Origin: Quinella sp. 2Q5
Lineage (GTDB): Bacteria; Bacillota; Negativicutes; Selenomonadales; Selenomonadaceae
Direction of reading: 5' to 3'
Length of the DNA stretch: 64,000 bases
Assembly: GCA_015206785.1 (NCBI GenBank)
Contig: JADEZQ010000009.1
Coordinates: 1 to 64,000 of the forward strand
How positions within the stretch are numbered: the stretch's first letter is position 1; every line of letters starts with the position of its first letter. Positions 18,767 through 39,412 of this stretch are shown piece after piece. A program made the position numbers and the translations under genes. The notes under the pieces are model-generated. The model had not been told where the DNA came from and made no database searches. It saw nothing but the letters and a program-made list of their open reading frames with translations.

Positions 18767-18790
18767 AACCATCACCGCACCCGTCACCGA

Positions 18791-18917
18791 AGCTGATAAC
18801 GAGGCCGCCCATGGATGGGCGGCCGCCGGCATACGACGACGTGATGCGTCGTTGCCGGCTCGGAGGTCCTTTTCTTTGCTACTTTCTTTTGGACCAGCAA
18901 AAGAAAGTAGATCCAAA
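18791..18917. repeat. Multi-hairpin intergenic repeat, subfamily 1 (copy A)
   Basis: agctgataacgaggccgcccatggatgggcggccgccggcatacgacgacgtgatgcgtcgttgccggctcggaggtccttttctttgctactttcttttggaccagcaaaagaaagtagatccaaa; near-identical to 35949-36075 and 36143-36270. Confidence 0.9.
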
Positions 18918-18937: not shown

Positions 18938-20083
18938 TTGAACACAATGACAACGCTTGAACCGTTCCCCGAAAGAATTTACGTAACGCGCCCGGTCTTC
19001 CCGACAATCGACGAAGTCACCGAGAAACTGCAAGACATCTGGCAATCGAAATGGCTGACGAACAACGGTCCGCAACACACCATGTTGGAACGGGAGCTGA
19101 CGGAATTCTTGCGCGTGCCGTGCCTGTCGCTGTTCAACAACGGAACGATTGCGCTGATGGTCGCCTGCCAAAGTCTGCGGCTTAGCGGAGAGGTCATCAC
19201 AACGCCGTTCACCTTCGCCGCCACGCCGCACGTTTTGAGCTGGAATAACATCACGCCGATTTTCTGCGACATCGACGCCGACACCATGAACATCGACGCC
19301 GACAAAATCGAATCAATGATAACGCCGCATACAACCGCAATCCTCGCTGTTCATGTCTTCGGCACGCCCTGCAACGTCGACAAGATTCAGGACGTCGCTG
19401 ACCGCTACGGGCTCAAGGTCGTCTATGACGCGGCGCATGCGTTCGGCGTGGAGATTGACGGGCGCGGCATCGGCACCTTCGGCGATATCTCCATGTTCAG
19501 CTTCCACGCCACGAAACTTTATCACACGCTCGAAGGCGGCGCGCTTGCAATGAACGACGTCAACGTCAAGCAACGGATTGACCTGCTGAAAAACTTCGGC
19601 ATCAAGAACGAGGAGGAAGTCGTCATGCCCGGCATCAACGGCAAGCTCGACGAAATTCGCGCTGCCATCGGGCGAATCATGCTCGGCTACGTGGAAGGCG
19701 AGAGGCTCAAGCGTCGACGGTTGCACGCGGTCTATGACGAAGAACTTGCCGGCGTCGACGGGCTGACGTTAATGCCGAAGACTGCCGCGGACGTGAAGCT
19801 GAATTGGCAGTATTACGTCGTGCGCGTGGACGAAAAAATTTTCGGCAGGTCGCGCGATTATGTCTACGACGAGCTGAGGAATTACAATGTCTTCGCGCGG
19901 AAATATTTCCATCCGTTGTGCAGCGAGTTCACCTGCTATCGTCAACTGAATTCGTCCGCCGTCGCCAATCTTCCGACAGCCAACGCCGTCGCCGGGCAGG
20001 TCTTGAGCTTGCCGATGTACGGTGCGCTTGCCGAAGACGACGTGCGAAAGATTTGCGCGCTCATCAAAAGTTTTCGTCGCTAA
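18938..20083 (+). CDS. DegT/DnrJ/EryC1/StrS-family PLP aminotransferase
   Basis: WLTNNGPQHTMLERELTEFL...SLFNNGTIALMVA...VITTPFTFAATPHVL...VVYDAAHAFGVEIDGRGIGTFGDISMFSFHATKLYHTLEGGAL. Confidence 0.93.
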   Translation: MNTMTTLEPFPERIYVTRPVFPTIDEVTEKLQDIWQSKWLTNNGPQHTMLERELTEFLRVPCLSLFNNGTIALMVACQSLRLSGEVITTPFTFAATPHVLSWNNITPIFCDIDADTMNIDADKIESMITPHTTAILAVHVFGTPCNVDKIQDVADRYGLKVVYDAAHAFGVEIDGRGIGTFGDISMFSFHATKLYHTLEGGALAMNDVNVKQRIDLLKNFGIKNEEEVVMPGINGKLDEIRAAIGRIMLGYVEGERLKRRRLHAVYDEELAGVDGLTLMPKTAADVKLNWQYYVVRVDEKIFGRSRDYVYDELRNYNVFARKYFHPLCSEFTCYRQLNSSAVANLPTANAVAGQVLSLPMYGALAEDDVRKICALIKSFRR

Positions 20084-23042: not shown

Positions 23043-26000
23043 TCAAACACTTTGCGCCAAAATGTCGGCGAGCTTGGCTTCGAACGCGCGGCAATACTTC
23101 ATCGGGTCGAGCGCGGCGGACTGCAAGAACATAGCGCGAAGATTTTTGTGCAGGGCGTCTAGGGTTTCGGTGTCGTTGGCTAAGGCGACGGCGGTTTGAA
23201 TGTAGGCTTCGACGCTGTTGACGGAAAGTTCGCCGAGCCCGATGCTGTTGAGGATGCTTTTGCCGAAGCGAGTGGAATGACGTTCGCCGAAGAAATTTAT
23301 GACGGGCACGCCCATATACAGCGCGTCGAGGGTCGTTGCGCCGCCGACGTAAGGGTAAGCGTCCAGAATGATGTCCACCGCGCTGATGGCACCGAAATAA
23401 TCATGCACGGCGGGGCGAATGGTCACGCGTTCCATGTCGCAGCCGATGGACTTCATCTTGTCGAAGAGGACGTCGACTGTGCGGTTGCTGATGAATTCTT
23501 GCGCACGCATCAAAAGTTTGGCATTCGGCACGCGGCGCAAGATTTCAGCCCAGATGGCTAGCATGTCGTCGTTGATTTTCATGTAGCGGCAGATGGTGCC
23601 GAAGGTGACGTAGCCGTTGCTCAGGCAGGGTGCACCCGTCGCGGCGGGCAAATCTTCGCGGCGGGCGTAGCTGAACTGCGCGGGCATGTACAAAAGTTTC
23701 TCGGCGAAAAATTTTTCGTGCTCACCAGGCGGATCGAGAACGTCGTCGGTGATGAAATAGTCGACGTCGCTGAGCCCAGTCGTCGACATGTAACCGATGC
23801 CGCTGATTTGCACGGGCGCGGGTCGATGAGCCAGAGCCCCCAAGCCGTTGTAGCCGGTGTGCCCCGCCAAATCAATGGCGACGTCAATTTCATCAGCGAA
23901 AATTTTTTCGGCAAGCTCCTCGTCCGTCAAGCTCTGCACGTCAACGAAATGTTCAACGCCGCGCCGATAAAATTCCGTGAACTCGTCATCTTCGGGGTTG
24001 CGGCTGTAGCAGGTGACTTCGAACTTTGCGCGGTCGTGGCAGCTGACGAAGCCGAAGACTACGGCGAACGCCGCGTGCTTGCGAAAATCCCCGCTGATGT
24101 AGCCGATGCGAATGCGTTCGTGGTGATGACGGCGGGGCGTGAACTTTTCCACGTCGCCAAAAATTTTCCCGTAATCGAAATGCGGCGCAGTCAGCTCCTC
24201 GCTCGAAAGATCCAGGAAGTGCAAACTCAACAGCACAGAATCGAAGAGTTCACGCCGCCGCGAAGGCTTCTGCGCCAGCTCAAACGCCCGCTCGTAATTC
24301 TGCACCGCCTCCACGTGATGACCGTTGTTCTGCGCGTACTTGGCAAGCTTGGCGTGGAACTCGGCGAGGATGTCCGCGGAAAAATTTTCAACCTCGCCCG
24401 AAGCGTACAGATGATCAATCGCCGCGCGAATGTTTTCGTAGGCACCGATGTTGTCGTCGAGATTGAAGCGGCGGTCGGCTATGGTGACGAGAAGTTTGGT
24501 GTCGCGCACGGCGTCGACGCTCGCGGCAAGCTCGGCGAAGTAGAGCGTGCGCTTGAAGTCGACGCGATTGAAGCGACTTTTGCCGGGCTTGACTTCCAGC
24601 GACAGATACAACGACGCCCGCCGATAAAATTCTCGCGCCTCGGCAATCGTCAACGGCGGCGGCTCCTGCGGGAAGATGGGCAACGGTTTCTTATCGACGT
24701 ACGCGCGGAAAATTTTTTCGTACGCCTGCTCAATCTCGCCCATGTAAATCGCGTCGTTCATCACGGGCGACTCTTCCATCCGCCGCCGCAAAGTCAAATG
24801 CAACTCGCGAAGGCGTTGGCGGTCGTTGGCAAGGGCGACGGCTTTGGCAACGTATTCGTCCGCACTGAAGGCGCAAAAATCTTCCAGCCCCATGTTCATC
24901 AGCAACGAATAGCCGAAGCGCGAATTGTGCCGTTCGCCGACGAGAGTGATGACGGGCGCACCCATGTACAGCGCGTCGCAGGTGGTGCCGCCGCCGGGAT
25001 AGGGGAAGGTGTCCAGCGCGATGTCGACGCGTTCATAGCAACGGACGTAGTCAATCTCATCAGGCTCGCAGGTCACGCGGTCGAGATCAATTCCCGCCGC
25101 ACGCATTCGTTCACGAGCACGATTCCCGCCGAAATTTTCACGGAAGACGGCGGCTTTGAGATACAGGCGGCTGTTGGGAACGGCGTCCAAGATTTTCGCC
25201 CACAACGTCAACATCTTGTCGGTAACCTTGCAGAAATTGTTGAAGCTGCCGAACGTGACGAAACCGTTGGCGACGCACGGCGCGGGCGTCACGTGATGAG
25301 AGGCGTCGTGCCAGACGTAGCAGAAGTGGCTGTGTTGCAGGCGCAGAATTTTTTCGGTGAAGAACTTTTCGTTGAGCCCTTCGGGGTCGGTGAACTTGTC
25401 GGCGATGAAGTAATCGACGGTATCAAGTCCGGTTGTCGACATGTAGCCGATGCCGCTGATTTGAATGGGCGCGGGCTTATACGCCAGCACGTCCAATGAA
25501 TTGTTGCCCGTGTGCCCCGCCAGGTCGACGAGGATATCAATTTCGTCGGCGAGGATTTGGTCGGCAACGGTGCGTGCGGTTTTGTCGAGGATATCGCGGA
25601 AGCCGTCAACATTGGCGGCGAACTGTCGGGTGATGTGGTCGGCGGCGTTGTTGGCATAGATGAAGACTTCGAAGCGCGTCTTGTCGTAGCTGGTAAAGAA
25701 GTGTGCGCTGAAGAAGGCGACGACGTGGAAGCGGACGTCGGGGGAGATGTAGCCGATGCGGATTTTTTTGTGGCGGGCGTGACGGGCGCGGTTGTGTTTG
25801 AAGCGGGGAATGTGCGCCAGAAGTTTTCCGAAGCCACGTGCCGCGTCGAACAGCTCTTCGCGGGTGACGGGCAGGTTGTGCAGGTTGAACAGGAAGTTGC
25901 CGTATTCTTCGCGGCGAATGTTCTCTGCCTGAGCATATTGAGCCGTGCCGACAAGCGAGCTGATATCTTGCAGGGCGTTGGCTCTGTAATACTCGATTGC

Positions 26001-27440
26001 CTTCGCCACGTTGCCCGTCAAACGATACGTCTGCCCCAAGACGTTGCGGGTGATCATCGTCGAAACCAAGTCTCCGCCGCCATGAGCCAGCGACCGCTCG
26101 GCGAAACGAATGCATTCAATTTGGTTGCCGCGCAAATGCCACACACGCGCCCGCAACATCAGCCGCAGAGCCGACGGCGGAAAATTTTTCTCCAGCCACG
26201 TGACGACTTCGTCCGCCGCGTCTGCCATGCGGTAATCGATGTAGAGCGTGGCAATTCGTTCGAGGGGCTCAGGGTCTTCGGGCTTGAGCGCGAAAATTTT
26301 TTCAGCCGTGCGCAAGAGCCGTTCCTTGTCGTGGAAAAGTTCGCGAACCTGAATCAGCTCCGCCGTCAGCTCGGAAATTTTGCGGCGTCTCTCGTCGGGC
26401 GTGAGCGGAATTTTTTCCGACCACTCGTCGATAAGTTTGCGCGCGCGAATTTGTTCTTCCTCGGTGAACGTCGACGGCTCGAACCTTTCAGCACCGCTCG
26501 TCACTTCAGCCAGAGCACGGCGCATTTCGTTCACGGCGGCGCGAAAATCTCCACGCTCGGCAAAAATTTCTGCAAGGCTCGCGGCAAATTCGGGCACGTG
26601 CGGATAATCGGCGACGGCTTCCTTCAAACGAGCGATGTAATCTTCGCGGCGGGCTGAATCCTTCGACAGGACGTCGAGCAAAATTTTCAGCGGGCGCGTC
26701 GACAGGCTGTGTCCAATCGTCTCGACATGCAACCGCGCAAATTTCTCGGCGTTGACCAAATCGCCCAAACCGTAGTAGCAATCGGCAAGGTAAGCGTAAG
26801 TTCGTTCGGGCTTGTCGGAAGTCGTCAGCTCGTCGAGCAGGAGCTTGAGGTTGCGTTCAAATTTGGCGCGGACAATCGTCGACGAATAGCCCGTGTGCCA
26901 AAGCGTCAACATCTCGGCGGGAATCATGGCAACGTTCGTCAAAGGCTCGTCGCCGCGATAAATGGTCTCGTGGATTTTGCCGACGTAACGGACGTCCGCC
27001 TTGGCGAAGATTCTAAGCAACGGGCTCGCCTCGATGATTTTGTTGCCGTTGTCAGCGTCGACGTTGACCAGATGAACGAACAGCCCCGCGAAATTTTTTG
27101 CACGGGCAAGCTTTATGGCTCGGCGCAGATTCTTTGCGGTGTCGTTGACAAAAAACTCGTCGGCATCAAGGAAGACAATCCAATTGCCGGTTGCTTCGCG
27201 CAGGGCGACATTGCGCGGCGTGGAGAAGTCGTCTTGCCAGGGTTCATGAAAAATCCTCGCGCCAAATTCCTCGGCGACGGCAACGGTGCCATCAACCGAA
27301 CCGGTATCGACCACGATGATTTCGTCGACATGCCCCGCCAAACTTTCCAGCGAACGGCGCAAATCGTCCGCGGCGTCGCGAACCATATAGCACGCAGAAA
27401 TTTTCAACCTGTCGACCGTCTTTGCCTTGCGCTTGACCAA
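23043..27440 (-). CDS. Giant glycosyltransferase: N-terminal GT2 domain plus TPR region and two SPINDLY/OGT-like (GT41-type) modules
   Basis: GT2: LKISACYMVRDAADDLRRSLESLAGHVDEIIVVDTGSVDGT...FLDADEFF. Two OGT modules, RIGYISPDVRFH... with QISGIGYMSTTGLDTVDYFIAD, and RIGYISGDFRKHA... with QISGIGYMSTTGLSDVDYFITD, each ending in GGTTCDALYMGAPVITL / GGATTLDALYMGVPVINF. Likely TTG start near 27440. Confidence 0.88.
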   Translation of the reverse strand: MVKRKAKTVDRLKISACYMVRDAADDLRRSLESLAGHVDEIIVVDTGSVDGTVAVAEEFGARIFHEPWQDDFSTPRNVALREATGNWIVFLDADEFFVNDTAKNLRRAIKLARAKNFAGLFVHLVNVDADNGNKIIEASPLLRIFAKADVRYVGKIHETIYRGDEPLTNVAMIPAEMLTLWHTGYSSTIVRAKFERNLKLLLDELTTSDKPERTYAYLADCYYGLGDLVNAEKFARLHVETIGHSLSTRPLKILLDVLSKDSARREDYIARLKEAVADYPHVPEFAASLAEIFAERGDFRAAVNEMRRALAEVTSGAERFEPSTFTEEEQIRARKLIDEWSEKIPLTPDERRRKISELTAELIQVRELFHDKERLLRTAEKIFALKPEDPEPLERIATLYIDYRMADAADEVVTWLEKNFPPSALRLMLRARVWHLRGNQIECIRFAERSLAHGGGDLVSTMITRNVLGQTYRLTGNVAKAIEYYRANALQDISSLVGTAQYAQAENIRREEYGNFLFNLHNLPVTREELFDAARGFGKLLAHIPRFKHNRARHARHKKIRIGYISPDVRFHVVAFFSAHFFTSYDKTRFEVFIYANNAADHITRQFAANVDGFRDILDKTARTVADQILADEIDILVDLAGHTGNNSLDVLAYKPAPIQISGIGYMSTTGLDTVDYFIADKFTDPEGLNEKFFTEKILRLQHSHFCYVWHDASHHVTPAPCVANGFVTFGSFNNFCKVTDKMLTLWAKILDAVPNSRLYLKAAVFRENFGGNRARERMRAAGIDLDRVTCEPDEIDYVRCYERVDIALDTFPYPGGGTTCDALYMGAPVITLVGERHNSRFGYSLLMNMGLEDFCAFSADEYVAKAVALANDRQRLRELHLTLRRRMEESPVMNDAIYMGEIEQAYEKIFRAYVDKKPLPIFPQEPPPLTIAEAREFYRRASLYLSLEVKPGKSRFNRVDFKRTLYFAELAASVDAVRDTKLLVTIADRRFNLDDNIGAYENIRAAIDHLYASGEVENFSADILAEFHAKLAKYAQNNGHHVEAVQNYERAFELAQKPSRRRELFDSVLLSLHFLDLSSEELTAPHFDYGKIFGDVEKFTPRRHHHERIRIGYISGDFRKHAAFAVVFGFVSCHDRAKFEVTCYSRNPEDDEFTEFYRRGVEHFVDVQSLTDEELAEKIFADEIDVAIDLAGHTGYNGLGALAHRPAPVQISGIGYMSTTGLSDVDYFITDDVLDPPGEHEKFFAEKLLYMPAQFSYARREDLPAATGAPCLSNGYVTFGTICRYMKINDDMLAIWAEILRRVPNAKLLMRAQEFISNRTVDVLFDKMKSIGCDMERVTIRPAVHDYFGAISAVDIILDAYPYVGGATTLDALYMGVPVINFFGERHSTRFGKSILNSIGLGELSVNSVEAYIQTAVALANDTETLDALHKNLRAMFLQSAALDPMKYCRAFEAKLADILAQSV

Positions 27441-35126: not shown

Positions 35127-35876
35127 TTGTCGCGCGGCAGGAAATTTTCCACGGCGGCAGAATTAGTCGACAGAAAAATTTTTGGACAGGTGATTCCGTT
35201 GAAAGACAAGCTCGCAAACATCTTGCGCAAGATACGAAACGTCGTGCTGGCGGCTCTGCTGTTGACGGCACTAATCATCGGGGGCTTCACGGCGGCGGTG
35301 AAGTTCGACGCGCTGACCACGGACGATGTCGCCATGCTAAACGAGGAGCTGGGGCTATATCGGTTGCCCTTCGTCGGCAACGGCAGATATTTCGAAGTGC
35401 CCGAAGGAGTCGAGTGGCCGCCGCCCGAACCGGAGCCTGAATCCGAACCGGAGCCTGAGCCTCCTGCGCCGCCGCCAGAACCTAAGCCCGTTGAACAGCC
35501 CAAGCCCGTCGACAAACCCAAGCCCGTTGACAAGCCCAAGGAAGTCAAAATTGACCGCAAGGCAATCGATGAACAGCGCGCCAAACGTGAGGCAGAAGAG
35601 AAGAAGCGCGTCGCTCGTCTGGCAAAAATTTATGAGGCGATGAAACCCGAAGCCGCCGCCAACGCTCTGGTCAATGTCGATTGGGACACGACGGTTTTGA
35701 TCCTCCAGCGCATGAGCGAAGATTCAGTAGCCGAGATCCTGTCGAAGATGGAGCCGACCGCCGCGGCGCAGCTGACTGAAATGCTCTACGCCGCCACGCA
35801 ACGCCGAGTGACCACGCCTTCGGACACAATGCGCGGCGAACCCGTCACCACGCCCGAACAAATCGCGGCGCAATAA
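35127..35876 (+). CDS. MotE-like / MgtE-N-domain-like protein with TM and Pro/Glu-rich linker
   Basis: TM VVLAALLLTALIIGGFTAAV; PEPEPESEPEPEPPAPPPEPKPVEQPKPVDKPKPVDKPKE; C-terminus IYEAMKPEAAANALVNVDWDTTVLILQRMSEDSVAEILSKMEPTAAAQLTEML. True start may be internal (~35190-35205). Confidence 0.7.
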   Translation: MSRGRKFSTAAELVDRKIFGQVIPLKDKLANILRKIRNVVLAALLLTALIIGGFTAAVKFDALTTDDVAMLNEELGLYRLPFVGNGRYFEVPEGVEWPPPEPEPESEPEPEPPAPPPEPKPVEQPKPVDKPKPVDKPKEVKIDRKAIDEQRAKREAEEKKRVARLAKIYEAMKPEAAANALVNVDWDTTVLILQRMSEDSVAEILSKMEPTAAAQLTEMLYAATQRRVTTPSDTMRGEPVTTPEQIAAQ

Positions 35877-35919: not shown

Positions 35920-35948
35920 CGTCAACGCCTAACGCCACCCGTATCCTT

Positions 35949-36075
35949 AGCTGATAACGAGGCCGCCCATGGACGGGCGGCCGCCGGCATACGACGACGT
36001 GATGCGTCGTTGCCGGCTCGGAGGTCCTTTTCTTTGCTACTTTCTTTTGGACCCGCAAAAGAAAGTAGATCTAAA
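35949..36075. repeat. Multi-hairpin intergenic repeat, subfamily 1 (copy B)
   Basis: Near-identical to 18791-18917 and 36143-36270. Confidence 0.9.
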
Positions 36076-36142
36076 CGCCAACGCAGTGAGCAACGACAGA
36101 TACCGTCACCAACCGCCGCTGTCAACCGTCACCCGTTTCCTT

Positions 36143-36270
36143 AGCTGATAACGAGGCCGCCCATGGACGGGCGGCCGCCGGCATACGACGACGTGATGCG
36201 TCGTTGCCGGCTCGTAGGTCCTTTTCTTTGCTACTTTCTTTTGGACCCGCAAAAGAAAGTAGATCCAAAT
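36143..36270. repeat. Multi-hairpin intergenic repeat, subfamily 1 (copy C), tandem to copy B
   Basis: Start-to-start spacing 194 bp from copy B; both preceded by ttagctgataacgaggcc. Confidence 0.9.
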
Positions 36271-36296
36271 GCAAACGCAGTCAGCGACAAAATTCT

Positions 36297-37076
36297 TCAC
36301 GTATAGGAGCCGACGATATATCCGCCGTCCACGAAAAAATTTTGCCCCGTAATCCACGCCGCCCGCTCGCTCAGCAGGAACAAAATCATCCCCGCCACGT
36401 CGCGCGCAGTGCCCGGTCCCAGCAGCTGTCGCGAAGCCGTCTGCTCGCCCACCGACGCCGCGTAGTCGCCGCTCATCATCTCGGTCTTGACGGGCGCGGG
36501 TGCCACGGAATTTATGCGGTGCTTGCCGCGAATGATTTCCTTTGCGAAAGATTTGACTGCCGATTGGATTGCCGCCTTCGCCGCCGAATACGCGAACAGC
36601 CCCTTGCCCGCGAAGTCCCCCGCCGTCGAACTCATCAGCACGAAGGAGCCGCCGCCGTCGGAGAATTTTTTTCGCGTCGCCGCCTGCAAGAAGTTCACCG
36701 CGCCCCAAAAGCTCGTGTCGAAAATTTTTCTGGCAAGCAATGTGTCGAACGAATGAAGCGGCGTGAGCCCCCAGATGCCCGCCGAATACAGCCCGCCGTT
36801 GATTCTGCCGACCGCGCCGGTGAAGTTGCCCAGAACCTGCGCCCAATCGTCGGGGGTGGCGGTGAGGACGTCGAGTTGCTCGGTGAAAATCTTTGGCGGG
36901 CGTTTGACGAGGCTGACGGGTGAATTGGTCTTCAGCTCGTTGAGCCGCTCCAAATTCCTGCCGATAGCCAAAACGTTTGCGCCGCCGTTTGAAAGCTCAA
37001 GCGTCACTTGCCGACCGATGCCGCTGGAAGCACCGACGACGACAAAATTTTTTTCCGTGAAGTCGAAAGTAACCAT
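36297..37076 (-). CDS. SDR-family oxidoreductase
   Basis: FDFTEKNFVVVGASSGIGRQVTLELSNGGANVLAIGRN...YSAAKAAIQSAVKSFAKEI...NSVAPAPVKTEM. Confidence 0.93.
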   Translation of the reverse strand: MVTFDFTEKNFVVVGASSGIGRQVTLELSNGGANVLAIGRNLERLNELKTNSPVSLVKRPPKIFTEQLDVLTATPDDWAQVLGNFTGAVGRINGGLYSAGIWGLTPLHSFDTLLARKIFDTSFWGAVNFLQAATRKKFSDGGGSFVLMSSTAGDFAGKGLFAYSAAKAAIQSAVKSFAKEIIRGKHRINSVAPAPVKTEMMSGDYAASVGEQTASRQLLGPGTARDVAGMILFLLSERAAWITGQNFFVDGGYIVGSYT

Positions 37077-37085
37077 GTTTGCCCC

Positions 37086-38246
37086 CTAAACGAACCTGCA
37101 GACGTGATCGATGGCGATGTCCGAGAAGCCGTAAGCCTCCGCCTTGGTGAGCCGACCGTTGCACACGTCGGAAATTTTTTCCAGCAAGACAGAGCCCGCG
37201 TCGGCAATCGTCAATCGTCCGTCGATTATGGGGCTCAAGTCGACGTCGATGTTGTCTTCCATCCACGAAAAAGTTTTTGCGTTGGCGGTGACCTTGAGCA
37301 CGGGGACGATGGCGTTGCCGGTGGGAGTGCCGCGACCGGTGGTGAAGATTATGGCGTTGCAACCGGCGGCGACCATGCTCGTGACGGACGAGATGTCATA
37401 GCCCGCCGTGTCCATGACGATTGCGCCGCGTTTGGTCGGACGTTCAGCTTGGTTGAGAACTTCGACGATGGGACGCGTGCCGCCCTTGCGAATGCAGCCG
37501 AGACTTTTTTCGTCGATGGTGGACAAGCCGCCGTCCTTGTTGCCGGGCGTCGGCTGACCTGCACGACAATCCTGACCCGCCGCTTTGAGATGAGCCTCGT
37601 AGTCCGTGCAGATTTGAATGATTCGGTTGTGAAGTTCGGGAGTCGCCGCACGTTTGGCAAGGACGTGTTCGCCGCCGATCCATTCGATGGATTCGCTCAT
37701 CAATGTCGACGCGCCCAAATCAATCAGCCTGTCGCTCAATTCGCCGACCGCGGGGTTGGAGGCGATGCCGCTCGTTGCGTCCGAGCCGCCGCATTCGATG
37801 CCGAGCAGCAGCTCCGAGATGTCGCACTCAACGCGCCGCTGAAGATTTGCTTGAGCCGACATATCTCGCGCGGCACGAACCGCCTGTTCGATGGTCTTGA
37901 GCGTGCCGCCGACTTCTTGAATGCCGAACGAGACGACGGGCTTGGAAGTCATGCACTGAATCTTTTCGCGGAGCTTAGCGTGAGGAACTGTTTCACAGCC
38001 GAGCCCGATGATGACCACGCCGAAGACGTTCGGGTTGCAGGCGAAGCCCGTCAAAATTTTTTGCGAGATGTCCGTGTTCGCCGCGACGTCCGAGCAGCCG
38101 CTGTTGAAGACGATATTCACCGCGCCGCGAACTTGACTTGCAACGATGCGACAGGTCTCTGAGCCGCAAGCACAAGTCGGCAGAATCAGCACGTGGTTGC
38201 GAATGCCCGCACGACCGTCAGCTCGTTTGTATCCCCAAAAGTTCAT
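37086..38246 (-). CDS. UxaA-family hydro-lyase, large (catalytic) subunit
   Basis: MNFWGYKRADGRAGIRNHVLILPTCACGSETCRIVA...VVIIGLGCETVP...LLGIECGGSDATSGIASNPAVGELSDRLI...FTTGRGTPTGNAIVPVLKVTAN. Confidence 0.92.
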   Translation of the reverse strand: MNFWGYKRADGRAGIRNHVLILPTCACGSETCRIVASQVRGAVNIVFNSGCSDVAANTDISQKILTGFACNPNVFGVVIIGLGCETVPHAKLREKIQCMTSKPVVSFGIQEVGGTLKTIEQAVRAARDMSAQANLQRRVECDISELLLGIECGGSDATSGIASNPAVGELSDRLIDLGASTLMSESIEWIGGEHVLAKRAATPELHNRIIQICTDYEAHLKAAGQDCRAGQPTPGNKDGGLSTIDEKSLGCIRKGGTRPIVEVLNQAERPTKRGAIVMDTAGYDISSVTSMVAAGCNAIIFTTGRGTPTGNAIVPVLKVTANAKTFSWMEDNIDVDLSPIIDGRLTIADAGSVLLEKISDVCNGRLTKAEAYGFSDIAIDHVCRFV

Positions 38247-38255
38247 GAGCTCACC

Positions 38256-38540
38256 TCAAATCATTTCGCCGGAATAATCGCGCGGCACGCTGAAAATATT
38301 TTCGTGCGACACCCACGCGCCGCAGTCGATGTCCGCCGCCGCCTGTCCGATGATCTCGCCGTACTTGATGACGTGAGAGCCGCGAGGAATTTTTTTCAAC
38401 GCGACCTTGTGCCAGGCGGGAATGTCTTCGTTGCAGACGAGAGAGCCGCCGCCGAGGACGTTGACCGTGTCGCCCGCCGGAGCCGGGGCCGTGCAGGTTG
38501 CAACGTTGTCTTTGGCGTCGAGCAGGATTGCGTTGGTCAC
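38256..38540 (-). CDS. UxaA-family small subunit (SAF domain)
   Basis: GTG start at 38540 overlapping the ACP stop (GTGA); VTNAILLDAKDNVATCTAPAPAGDTVNV...DIPAWHKVALKKIPRGSHVIKYGEIIGQAAADIDCGAWVSHEN: SAF/altronate dehydratase N-domain. Confidence 0.88.
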   Translation of the reverse strand: MTNAILLDAKDNVATCTAPAPAGDTVNVLGGGSLVCNEDIPAWHKVALKKIPRGSHVIKYGEIIGQAAADIDCGAWVSHENIFSVPRDYSGEMI

Positions 38541-38764
38541 GATGCGTCGCCCCCCGTCAGCCTGAACAAATCGCCCACCGTCGAAGCCGATTTGATGTCG
38601 TCGGGCGAAATTTTTTTTGTCAGCGTCGTCTTGCACCACGAGAAGAACGCCACCATGCTGAGCGAATCCCAATCCGCCACGTCCGAAAGTTTTGTCGACA
38701 GATTGAGCGCGGCGTCGGTGTCCATCAATTCCGTGAGCTTCGCTACGAATTCATCAGCCGTCAT
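38537..38764 (-). CDS. Acyl carrier protein
   Basis: 75 aa; KLSDVADWDSLSMVAFFSWC with DSL phosphopantetheine site; ACP-like size and charge. Confidence 0.85.
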   Translation of the reverse strand: MTADEFVAKLTELMDTDAALNLSTKLSDVADWDSLSMVAFFSWCKTTLTKKISPDDIKSASTVGDLFRLTGGDAS

Positions 38765-38776
38765 GAAAATTTCCTC

Positions 38777-39412
38777 CTATATCTCCGCGGACGGGTTGCC
38801 GAAGACCGTGACGCCCGCCCGAACTTTTTTCAGCACCACCGAGCCCGCACCGACCGTCGCGCCGTCAGCTACACGAGCCCGCGGCAAGATGATTGCGCCG
38901 CTGCCGACGAGAACCTCCGCGCCGATTTGGCAGGAGCCCGATATCGCGGCGTGCGGCATAATGCAACTGAAGTCGCCGAGCTGCGAGTCGTGACCGATTG
39001 TTGAGGCGACGTTGACCGCGACGAAATTGCCGAGGCGTGCGCCGTCACCGACAACGACCTGCGGGCAGACGATAACTCCGCGACCGAGCTCAACCGTCGG
39101 CATGATGTTCGCGCTGAGGCTGATGACGTTGACGAAGTTTCCGCCGCGAGCAGAAATTTTTTCCGCCAGATGCCGACGAGCCTTCGGCGTGCCAACCGCA
39201 ACAGTGAACACGTCTTGAGCGCAGATGTCGTAGCTGTCGATGTCGCCGAGAACTTTGGCGGGCAAGCGTGCGTATTCGGCGGCGGAAAGTTTAACGTCGC
39301 CGTCGATGAAACCTTTGATGCGCCATTCAGAGCCGAAGCCGTGAGATTGGTGCGCGTGCCAGAAAACTTCGCGAGCAAAGCCTCCGCAACCGACGATGAT
39401 CAGATTCTTCAT
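38777..39412 (-). CDS. NeuD/PglD-family sugar O-/N-acyltransferase (left-handed beta-helix)
   Basis: MKNLIIVGCGGFAREVFWHAHQ...GFIDGD...VAVGTPKARRHLAEKI...ISLSANIMPTVELGRGVIVCPQVVVGDGARLGNFVAVNVASTIGHDSQLGDFSCIMPHAAISG. Confidence 0.92.
   Translation of the reverse strand: MKNLIIVGCGGFAREVFWHAHQSHGFGSEWRIKGFIDGDVKLSAAEYARLPAKVLGDIDSYDICAQDVFTVAVGTPKARRHLAEKISARGGNFVNVISLSANIMPTVELGRGVIVCPQVVVGDGARLGNFVAVNVASTIGHDSQLGDFSCIMPHAAISGSCQIGAEVLVGSGAIILPRARVADGATVGAGSVVLKKVRAGVTVFGNPSAEI

Follow-up and report, generated by a model that had tools for sequence, protein, structure and literature searches.

Flagellin of Pseudomonas syringae carries a modified sugar whose genes lie together in a viosamine island comprising vioA (aminotransferase), vioM (methyltransferase), vioT (a glycosyltransferase of 1173 aa), vioS (beta-ketoacyl-ACP synthase III, KASIII), vioB (acetyltransferase), vioR (3-oxoacyl-ACP reductase) and acp (acyl carrier protein, ACP) (PMC3927599). 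The product, N-(3-hydroxy-1-oxobutyl)-viosamine, is supported by mass spectrometry of mutants (PMC3927599). The related flagellin glycosylation island genes of P. aeruginosa PAK are, together with this island, among the closest known systems to the locus described here, which lies in a 64,000-nucleotide stretch (the window; positions 1 to 64,000 of contig JADEZQ010000009.1, our contig C22) of Quinella sp. 2Q5, a 1.82-Mb metagenome-assembled genome that is 79% complete. A cassette of five genes in the window encodes a NeuD-type acyltransferase, an ACP, the SAF-domain and catalytic subunits of a UxaA/GarD-type dehydratase, and a FabG-like short-chain dehydrogenase/reductase (SDR) (Table 1). The NeuD, ACP and SDR genes are the counterparts of vioB, acp and vioR and are likewise clustered, whereas the window cassette has SAF-UxaA in place of vioS, and the remaining functions of the island are dispersed over the Quinella chromosome. 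In our judgement the cassette is probably a Quinella VioB-ACP-VioR module for the N-acylation of an amino sugar, in which a two-subunit SAF/UxaA dehydratase has been captured between ACP and SDR. On this reading, a hitherto unexplained cassette from a rumen genus that is abundant yet uncultured would be connected with a characterised route to hydroxyacylated amino sugars, and Quinella is predicted to have a viosamine-like surface sugar.

Table 1. Coordinates of the cassette genes and of two further features of the window.
Feature	Position	Strand	Properties
NeuD/PglD/VioB-type left-handed beta-helix acyltransferase (vioB-like)	38777..39412	-	211 aa; His141 within conserved GHD
Acyl carrier protein (ACP)	38537..38764	-	75 aa; phosphopantetheine site Ser34 in WDSLS
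SAF-domain small subunit, UxaA/GarD-type dehydratase	38256..38540	-	94 aa; GTG start
UxaA/GarD-type catalytic subunit	37086..38246	-	386 aa; GD_AH_second + GD_AH_C
FabG-like SDR (vioR-like)	36297..37076	-	259 aa; Ser150 / Tyr163-xxx-Lys167
DegT/DnrJ/EryC1 aminotransferase, DesI-like, candidate vioA function	18947..20083	+	unlinked to cassette, same contig
162-nt structured dispersed repeat, two direct copies	35933-36094, 36127-36288		directly after SDR stop

The original prediction, made from the window alone, described five open reading frames tightly packed on one strand and assigned each to a family, and it was right on both counts. In the order from NeuD to SDR the intergenic gaps are 12, -4, 9 and 9 nt, the negative value reflecting a 4-nt overlap between the GTG start of the SAF gene and the TGA stop of the ACP gene. 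The NeuD protein scores 181.4 bits against the TIGR03570 (NeuD/PglB/VioB) profile, above the cut-off of 160.8, and a structure-database comparison gave VioB (7txp) as its best solved relative (E 1.5e-27). The ACP scores slightly under the Pfam cut-off and is assigned by its fold and its modification site: the AlphaFold model is a confident four-helix fold (pLDDT 90.7), carrier proteins make up nearly all of the solved structures closest to it, and Ser34 is invariant across 18 aligned ACPs. The SAF subunit matches PF08666 and, together with the catalytic chain and its GD_AH domains, makes up a complete UxaA/GarD domain set. The SDR has an adh_short_C2 domain, FabG-like matches and an S-YxxxK site, and is presumed from these to be a 3-oxoacyl-ACP reductase. 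Purifying selection acts on all five genes, with median dN/dS values of 0.16 (NeuD), 0.13 (ACP), 0.20 (SAF), 0.06 (UxaA) and 0.11 (SDR), which are rough values as synonymous distances are high, near 1.

The relationship between SAF-UxaA and vioS became apparent when each cassette gene was searched in 80 relatives and loci with NeuD, ACP and SDR genes that lack UxaA were inspected. In seven sister genomes (G002, G004, G006, G011, G023, G029 and G043) the slot between ACP and SDR is occupied by a KASIII of about 336-342 aa, which keeps Cys, His and Asn in the expected motifs LGCSG, LHQAN and GNTSS, and most of these seven sets adjoin glf, glycosyltransferase, Wzm or Wzt genes. The sister sets L085, L086, L088, L090 and L100 have the gene order of the window, with NeuD 57-60%, ACP 49-54% and SDR 60-67% identical, and differ from it in having KASIII in place of SAF-UxaA and in lying among glf, glycosyltransferase, Wzm or Wzt genes. 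In sets from further away in the genus (L093-L096), ACP, SDR and KASIII are combined with a GNAT-type acyltransferase, and that of L094 additionally holds FdtA and a DegT sugar aminotransferase. In G025 a NeuD-ACP-SDR set is found in which ACP and SDR are directly consecutive, and G022 and G048 have kept NeuD, ACP and SDR and lack UxaA. The SDR and NeuD trees each split UxaA-type from KASIII-type sets, with the G022 and G048 cassettes falling inside the UxaA-type group, and tblastn detected no KASIII remnants in UxaA-type cassettes. The cassette UxaA proteins form a single clade with 100/100 support, next to non-cassette UxaA of Selenomonas/Schwartzia (Selenomonadaceae), which indicates that SAF-UxaA entered the slot once; repeated invasion of the slot need not be invoked. 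Because KASIII occurs in both the sister and the more distant sets, we infer a history of one KASIII loss and one SAF-UxaA gain, with UxaA then being lost in G022 and G048. The possibility that the cassette has been decaying since the loss of KASIII was rejected because dN/dS is low in all five genes. We found no description in the open-access literature of the replacement of KASIII by a UxaA-type dehydratase in such a module. The statement in the original prediction that no standard pathway was known for exactly this set is literally correct for all five genes, but three of the five constitute an already known kind of module, NeuD-ACP-SDR. In G022, a 1235-aa gene with a weak MreB-like match (L098:4645-8352) immediately follows NeuD-ACP.

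It had also been proposed that an ACP-borne hydroxyacyl group could be put on a sugar, and a check for linkage to polysaccharide loci had been suggested. For NeuD, ACP and SDR the proposal is well supported, as they match vioB, acp and vioR and have orthologous KASIII-type sets in polysaccharide loci; the linkage itself holds for KASIII-type sets only. No glycan export or polymer genes are found beside the window cassette; nearest to it lie a cytochrome c552 region, a gene with an MgtE_N domain (MotE-like) and a HAD hydrolase gene. We discarded polysaccharide or flagellar linkage within the window, where the flanks are unrelated and the MgtE_N/MotE-like gene (35190-35876) is the sole motility-like neighbour. 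The position of the window genes outside any glycan locus, and the variety among hexapeptide acyltransferases, could be taken to mean that NeuD-ACP-SDR acylate something besides an amino sugar nucleotide, such as the hydroxyl of a lipid-linked sugar or a protein. We regard this as very improbable, since the closest characterised relatives of NeuD are amino-sugar N-acyltransferases (VioB, PglD and perosamine N-acetyltransferase), polysaccharide loci are where the orthologous sets are found, and FdtA and a sugar aminotransferase accompany one related set.

Candidates for the remaining steps of a viosamine-type route are found elsewhere in the genome. The best profile match of the aminotransferase listed in Table 1 is DesI (TIGR04427), at 322 bits and under its cut-off of 650, followed by PseC at 215, and its best solved relative is 2po3. 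DesI is a dTDP-4-dehydro-6-deoxyglucose 4-aminotransferase. Contig C39 encodes three such proteins in a row, a methyltransferase, a KASIII and a GT2/RgpF glycosyltransferase of 1444 aa, and in genome G017 aminotransferase, KASIII and glycosyltransferase genes are contiguous. From these genes we infer the following route, in which every reaction, the identities of the sugar and the acyl group and the role of UxaA are predictions. The KASIII encoded on C39 would condense acyl-CoA with malonyl-ACP to give 3-oxoacyl-ACP, which the SDR would reduce to 3-hydroxyacyl-ACP. NeuD would then move the 3-hydroxyacyl group onto the amino group of a nucleotide-activated 4-amino-4,6-dideoxyhexose, a viosamine-like sugar that the DesI-like aminotransferase would supply, and the large GT2/RgpF glycosyltransferase would join the acylated sugar to a surface or flagellin glycan. 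Either flagellin or a surface polymer could be the acceptor, because flagellin-family genes are present in the window genome and both flagellar and surface-polymer genes have been reported in Quinella genomes (PMC9585023). SAF-UxaA would be co-expressed with the acylation genes without being a chemical step of acylation, and most likely retains an ancestral activity in the dehydration of a free hydroxy-acid, at a guess a small aldarate such as tartrate. A candidate protein O-glycosyltransferase of 1447 aa, which has a GT2 domain, tetratricopeptide repeats and a GT41 domain of OGT-like type, is also encoded in the window (23043-27386).

A place for SAF-UxaA outside the acyl chemistry is suggested by its relatives. 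A scan of GTDB genomes with the UxaA catalytic subunit identified 259 related places, the best 80 of which were analysed; 25 are from Quinella or close kin, with UxaA 87-91% identical to the window protein, and 55 are from other organisms (Synergistales, Lachnospiraceae, Oscillospiraceae, Selenomonas and others), in which NeuD and ACP are absent. Homologues in Selenomonadales, Synergistales, Lachnospiraceae and Oscillospiraceae share about 80-91% identity with UxaA of the window, and of the 181 alignment columns that are invariant outside Quinella just four vary inside it, conservatively and in few sequences. Outside the cassette, SAF-UxaA often lies opposite a LysR gene and 5' of an SDF or CitMHS dicarboxylate-type transporter gene, some of these loci also having an esterase or an Oxidored_FMN-family reductase. 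These operons, in Lachnospiraceae, Oscillospiraceae and Synergistales, encode the same two-subunit enzyme (catalytic chain 79-85% identical) without ACP, NeuD or an orthologous SDR, and are catabolic in appearance; no LysR, SDF or CitMHS genes adjoin the window cassette. Their layout resembles that of tartrate operons such as ttdR-ttdABT, and tartrate may be the substrate of the LysR-operon enzyme. Galactarate dehydratase GarD (6u7l) and altronate dehydratase UxaA have the same domain architecture once the SAF and catalytic chains are summed, whereas in the window the chains are split and the genome context is different. GarD itself was rejected as the function, the window chains scoring 47 and 230 bits against a TIGR03248 equivalog cut-off of 730.85. 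Searches of the open-access literature that paired UxaA with flagellin glycosylation or with tartrate dehydratase, or that looked for it in gut bacteria, returned nothing relevant, and neither tartrate, altronate nor acyl carrier protein is mentioned in the main text of the paper on the Quinella genomes (PMC9585023). Operons of LysR, SAF-UxaA, SDF or CitMHS and esterase genes are widespread in gut Firmicutes and Synergistetes (L026-L084) and perhaps act on tartrate or its cinnamoyl esters; the highly conserved SAF/UxaA found there beside LysR and dicarboxylate transporters is an uncharacterised dehydratase of interest in itself.

Because UxaA is near-unchanged relative to the catabolic enzymes, and its partners show little re-specialisation and persist where it has been lost, the dehydratase probably stands outside the acyl chemistry. 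With a candidate KASIII encoded elsewhere in the genome, the original proposal that the lyase takes part in that chemistry is thus not upheld.

The exchange in the slot nonetheless admits a second explanation, in which SAF-UxaA functionally replaces KASIII. Its substrate would be a polyhydroxy acid, with dehydration turning, for example, tartrate into oxaloacetate or a C4 aldonate into 2-oxo-4-hydroxybutyrate. The SDR would reduce the resulting oxo-acid to a hydroxy-acid, ACP would carry this and NeuD would transfer it, placing a different acyl group on the sugar. Slot occupancy is mutually exclusive, with UxaA in one clade and KASIII in the sister sets; the UxaA-type cassettes are free of KASIII remnants; ACP and SAF are translationally coupled; and the protein distances of ACP, SAF and UxaA correlate. 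Hydroxy-acids such as 3-deoxy-tetronate (Vibrio cholerae O1) are, moreover, N-acyl groups on O-antigen amino sugars. However, the cassette has no enzyme to load a free acid onto ACP, and UxaA is both dispensable (G022, G048) and near-identical in conserved sites to the enzymes of the LysR/dicarboxylate-transporter operons. Altered specificity of SDR or NeuD in UxaA-type sets was considered and set aside: few group-specific positions in SDR, NeuD and ACP distinguish these from KASIII-type sets, along with a short SDR loop insertion around residues 53-58, and SDR and NeuD show almost no change in specificity. We consider functional replacement possible but unlikely, and treat as equally tentative its corollary that one rumen Quinella clade bears a surface-sugar acyl group derived, via a dedicated ACP, from a hydroxy-dicarboxylic or sugar acid (malyl, 2,4-dihydroxybutyryl). 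The KASIII/UxaA-type exchange in a fixed slot poses a testable question, whether the acyl group has been changed or a catabolic enzyme has been captured by a glycan operon.

Twenty-two of the 25 Quinella-type loci, in addition to the window, combine SAF-UxaA with one or more of NeuD, ACP and SDR, a recurrence beyond chance. Complete contiguous five-gene sets are found in the window, L009, L012, L016, L017, L021 and L024, and L025, L030, L031 and L033 have ACP-SAF-UxaA-SDR with no NeuD nearby. L019 and L020 have all five genes, but here an MmeI-type restriction-modification gene separates ACP from SAF, as it does in L007 (3491-6235). In several relatives SAF is fused in frame with UxaA. The flanks vary and include, as named from reading of the sequences, HAD/RapZ-type genes, dapB...aroC, argC-argJ and others. 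Scattering of the genes in close relatives, which would have spoken against the original prediction, is seen in part: several genomes have NeuD-ACP, SAF-UxaA and SDR apart or inverted.

A pure accident of rearrangement, by which a catabolic dehydratase came to share an operon with a module for glycan acylation without benefit from the linkage, would fit the strongly shuffled gene order of Quinella, the splitting or inversion of cassette elements in eight loci (L005, L007, L008, L011, in which NeuD-ACP is inverted, L013, L014, L015 and L022) and the three loci with the MmeI-type insertion. Yet there are at least four flanking contexts in which the unit is found with its internal spacing and overlap conserved, which suggests that co-expression has been maintained, and we regard accident as quite improbable.

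Several observations weigh against the favoured reading of an N-acylation module with a captured dehydratase. An unrelated passenger should separate from its neighbours more often than is seen, given that gene order is so strongly shuffled among these genomes and that across at least four contexts ACP is immediately followed by SAF in 15 loci, in 11 of them with the stop and start overlapping, while UxaA adjoins SDR in 17. The exact slot exchange with KASIII and the kept ACP overlap across rearranged genomes argue for a link between SAF-UxaA and acylation. The genes for all seven viosamine-island functions in the window genome are dispersed candidates, and some genomes that lack a cassette altogether likewise have KASIII of the C39 type. 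Canonical FabH above the TIGR00747 cut-off is found in none of 30 genomes of the genus, as against 19 of 19 other genomes of the class that were searched; because such KASIII enzymes, that of C39 included, may carry out fatty-acid initiation in Quinella, a role for the C39 enzyme in acylation is put forward as a prediction. To our knowledge, no sugar or acyl structures have been described for Quinella. The KASIII genes of the genus are of glycan type only, scoring about 215 bits or less, and one of them is nearly universal.

The cassette is bounded downstream of the SDR by the repeat listed in Table 1, a third window copy of which (18778-18917) lies 5' of the DesI-like aminotransferase gene. 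It forms strong hairpins (folding z-score -5.2) and is present in about 46 long copies of 88-100% identity across the 1.8-Mb genome. No Rfam family reached threshold for it, and the loci of relatives contain only partial matches. The repeat is a boundary of the cassette and has no part in its function, although it could drive the gene shuffling.

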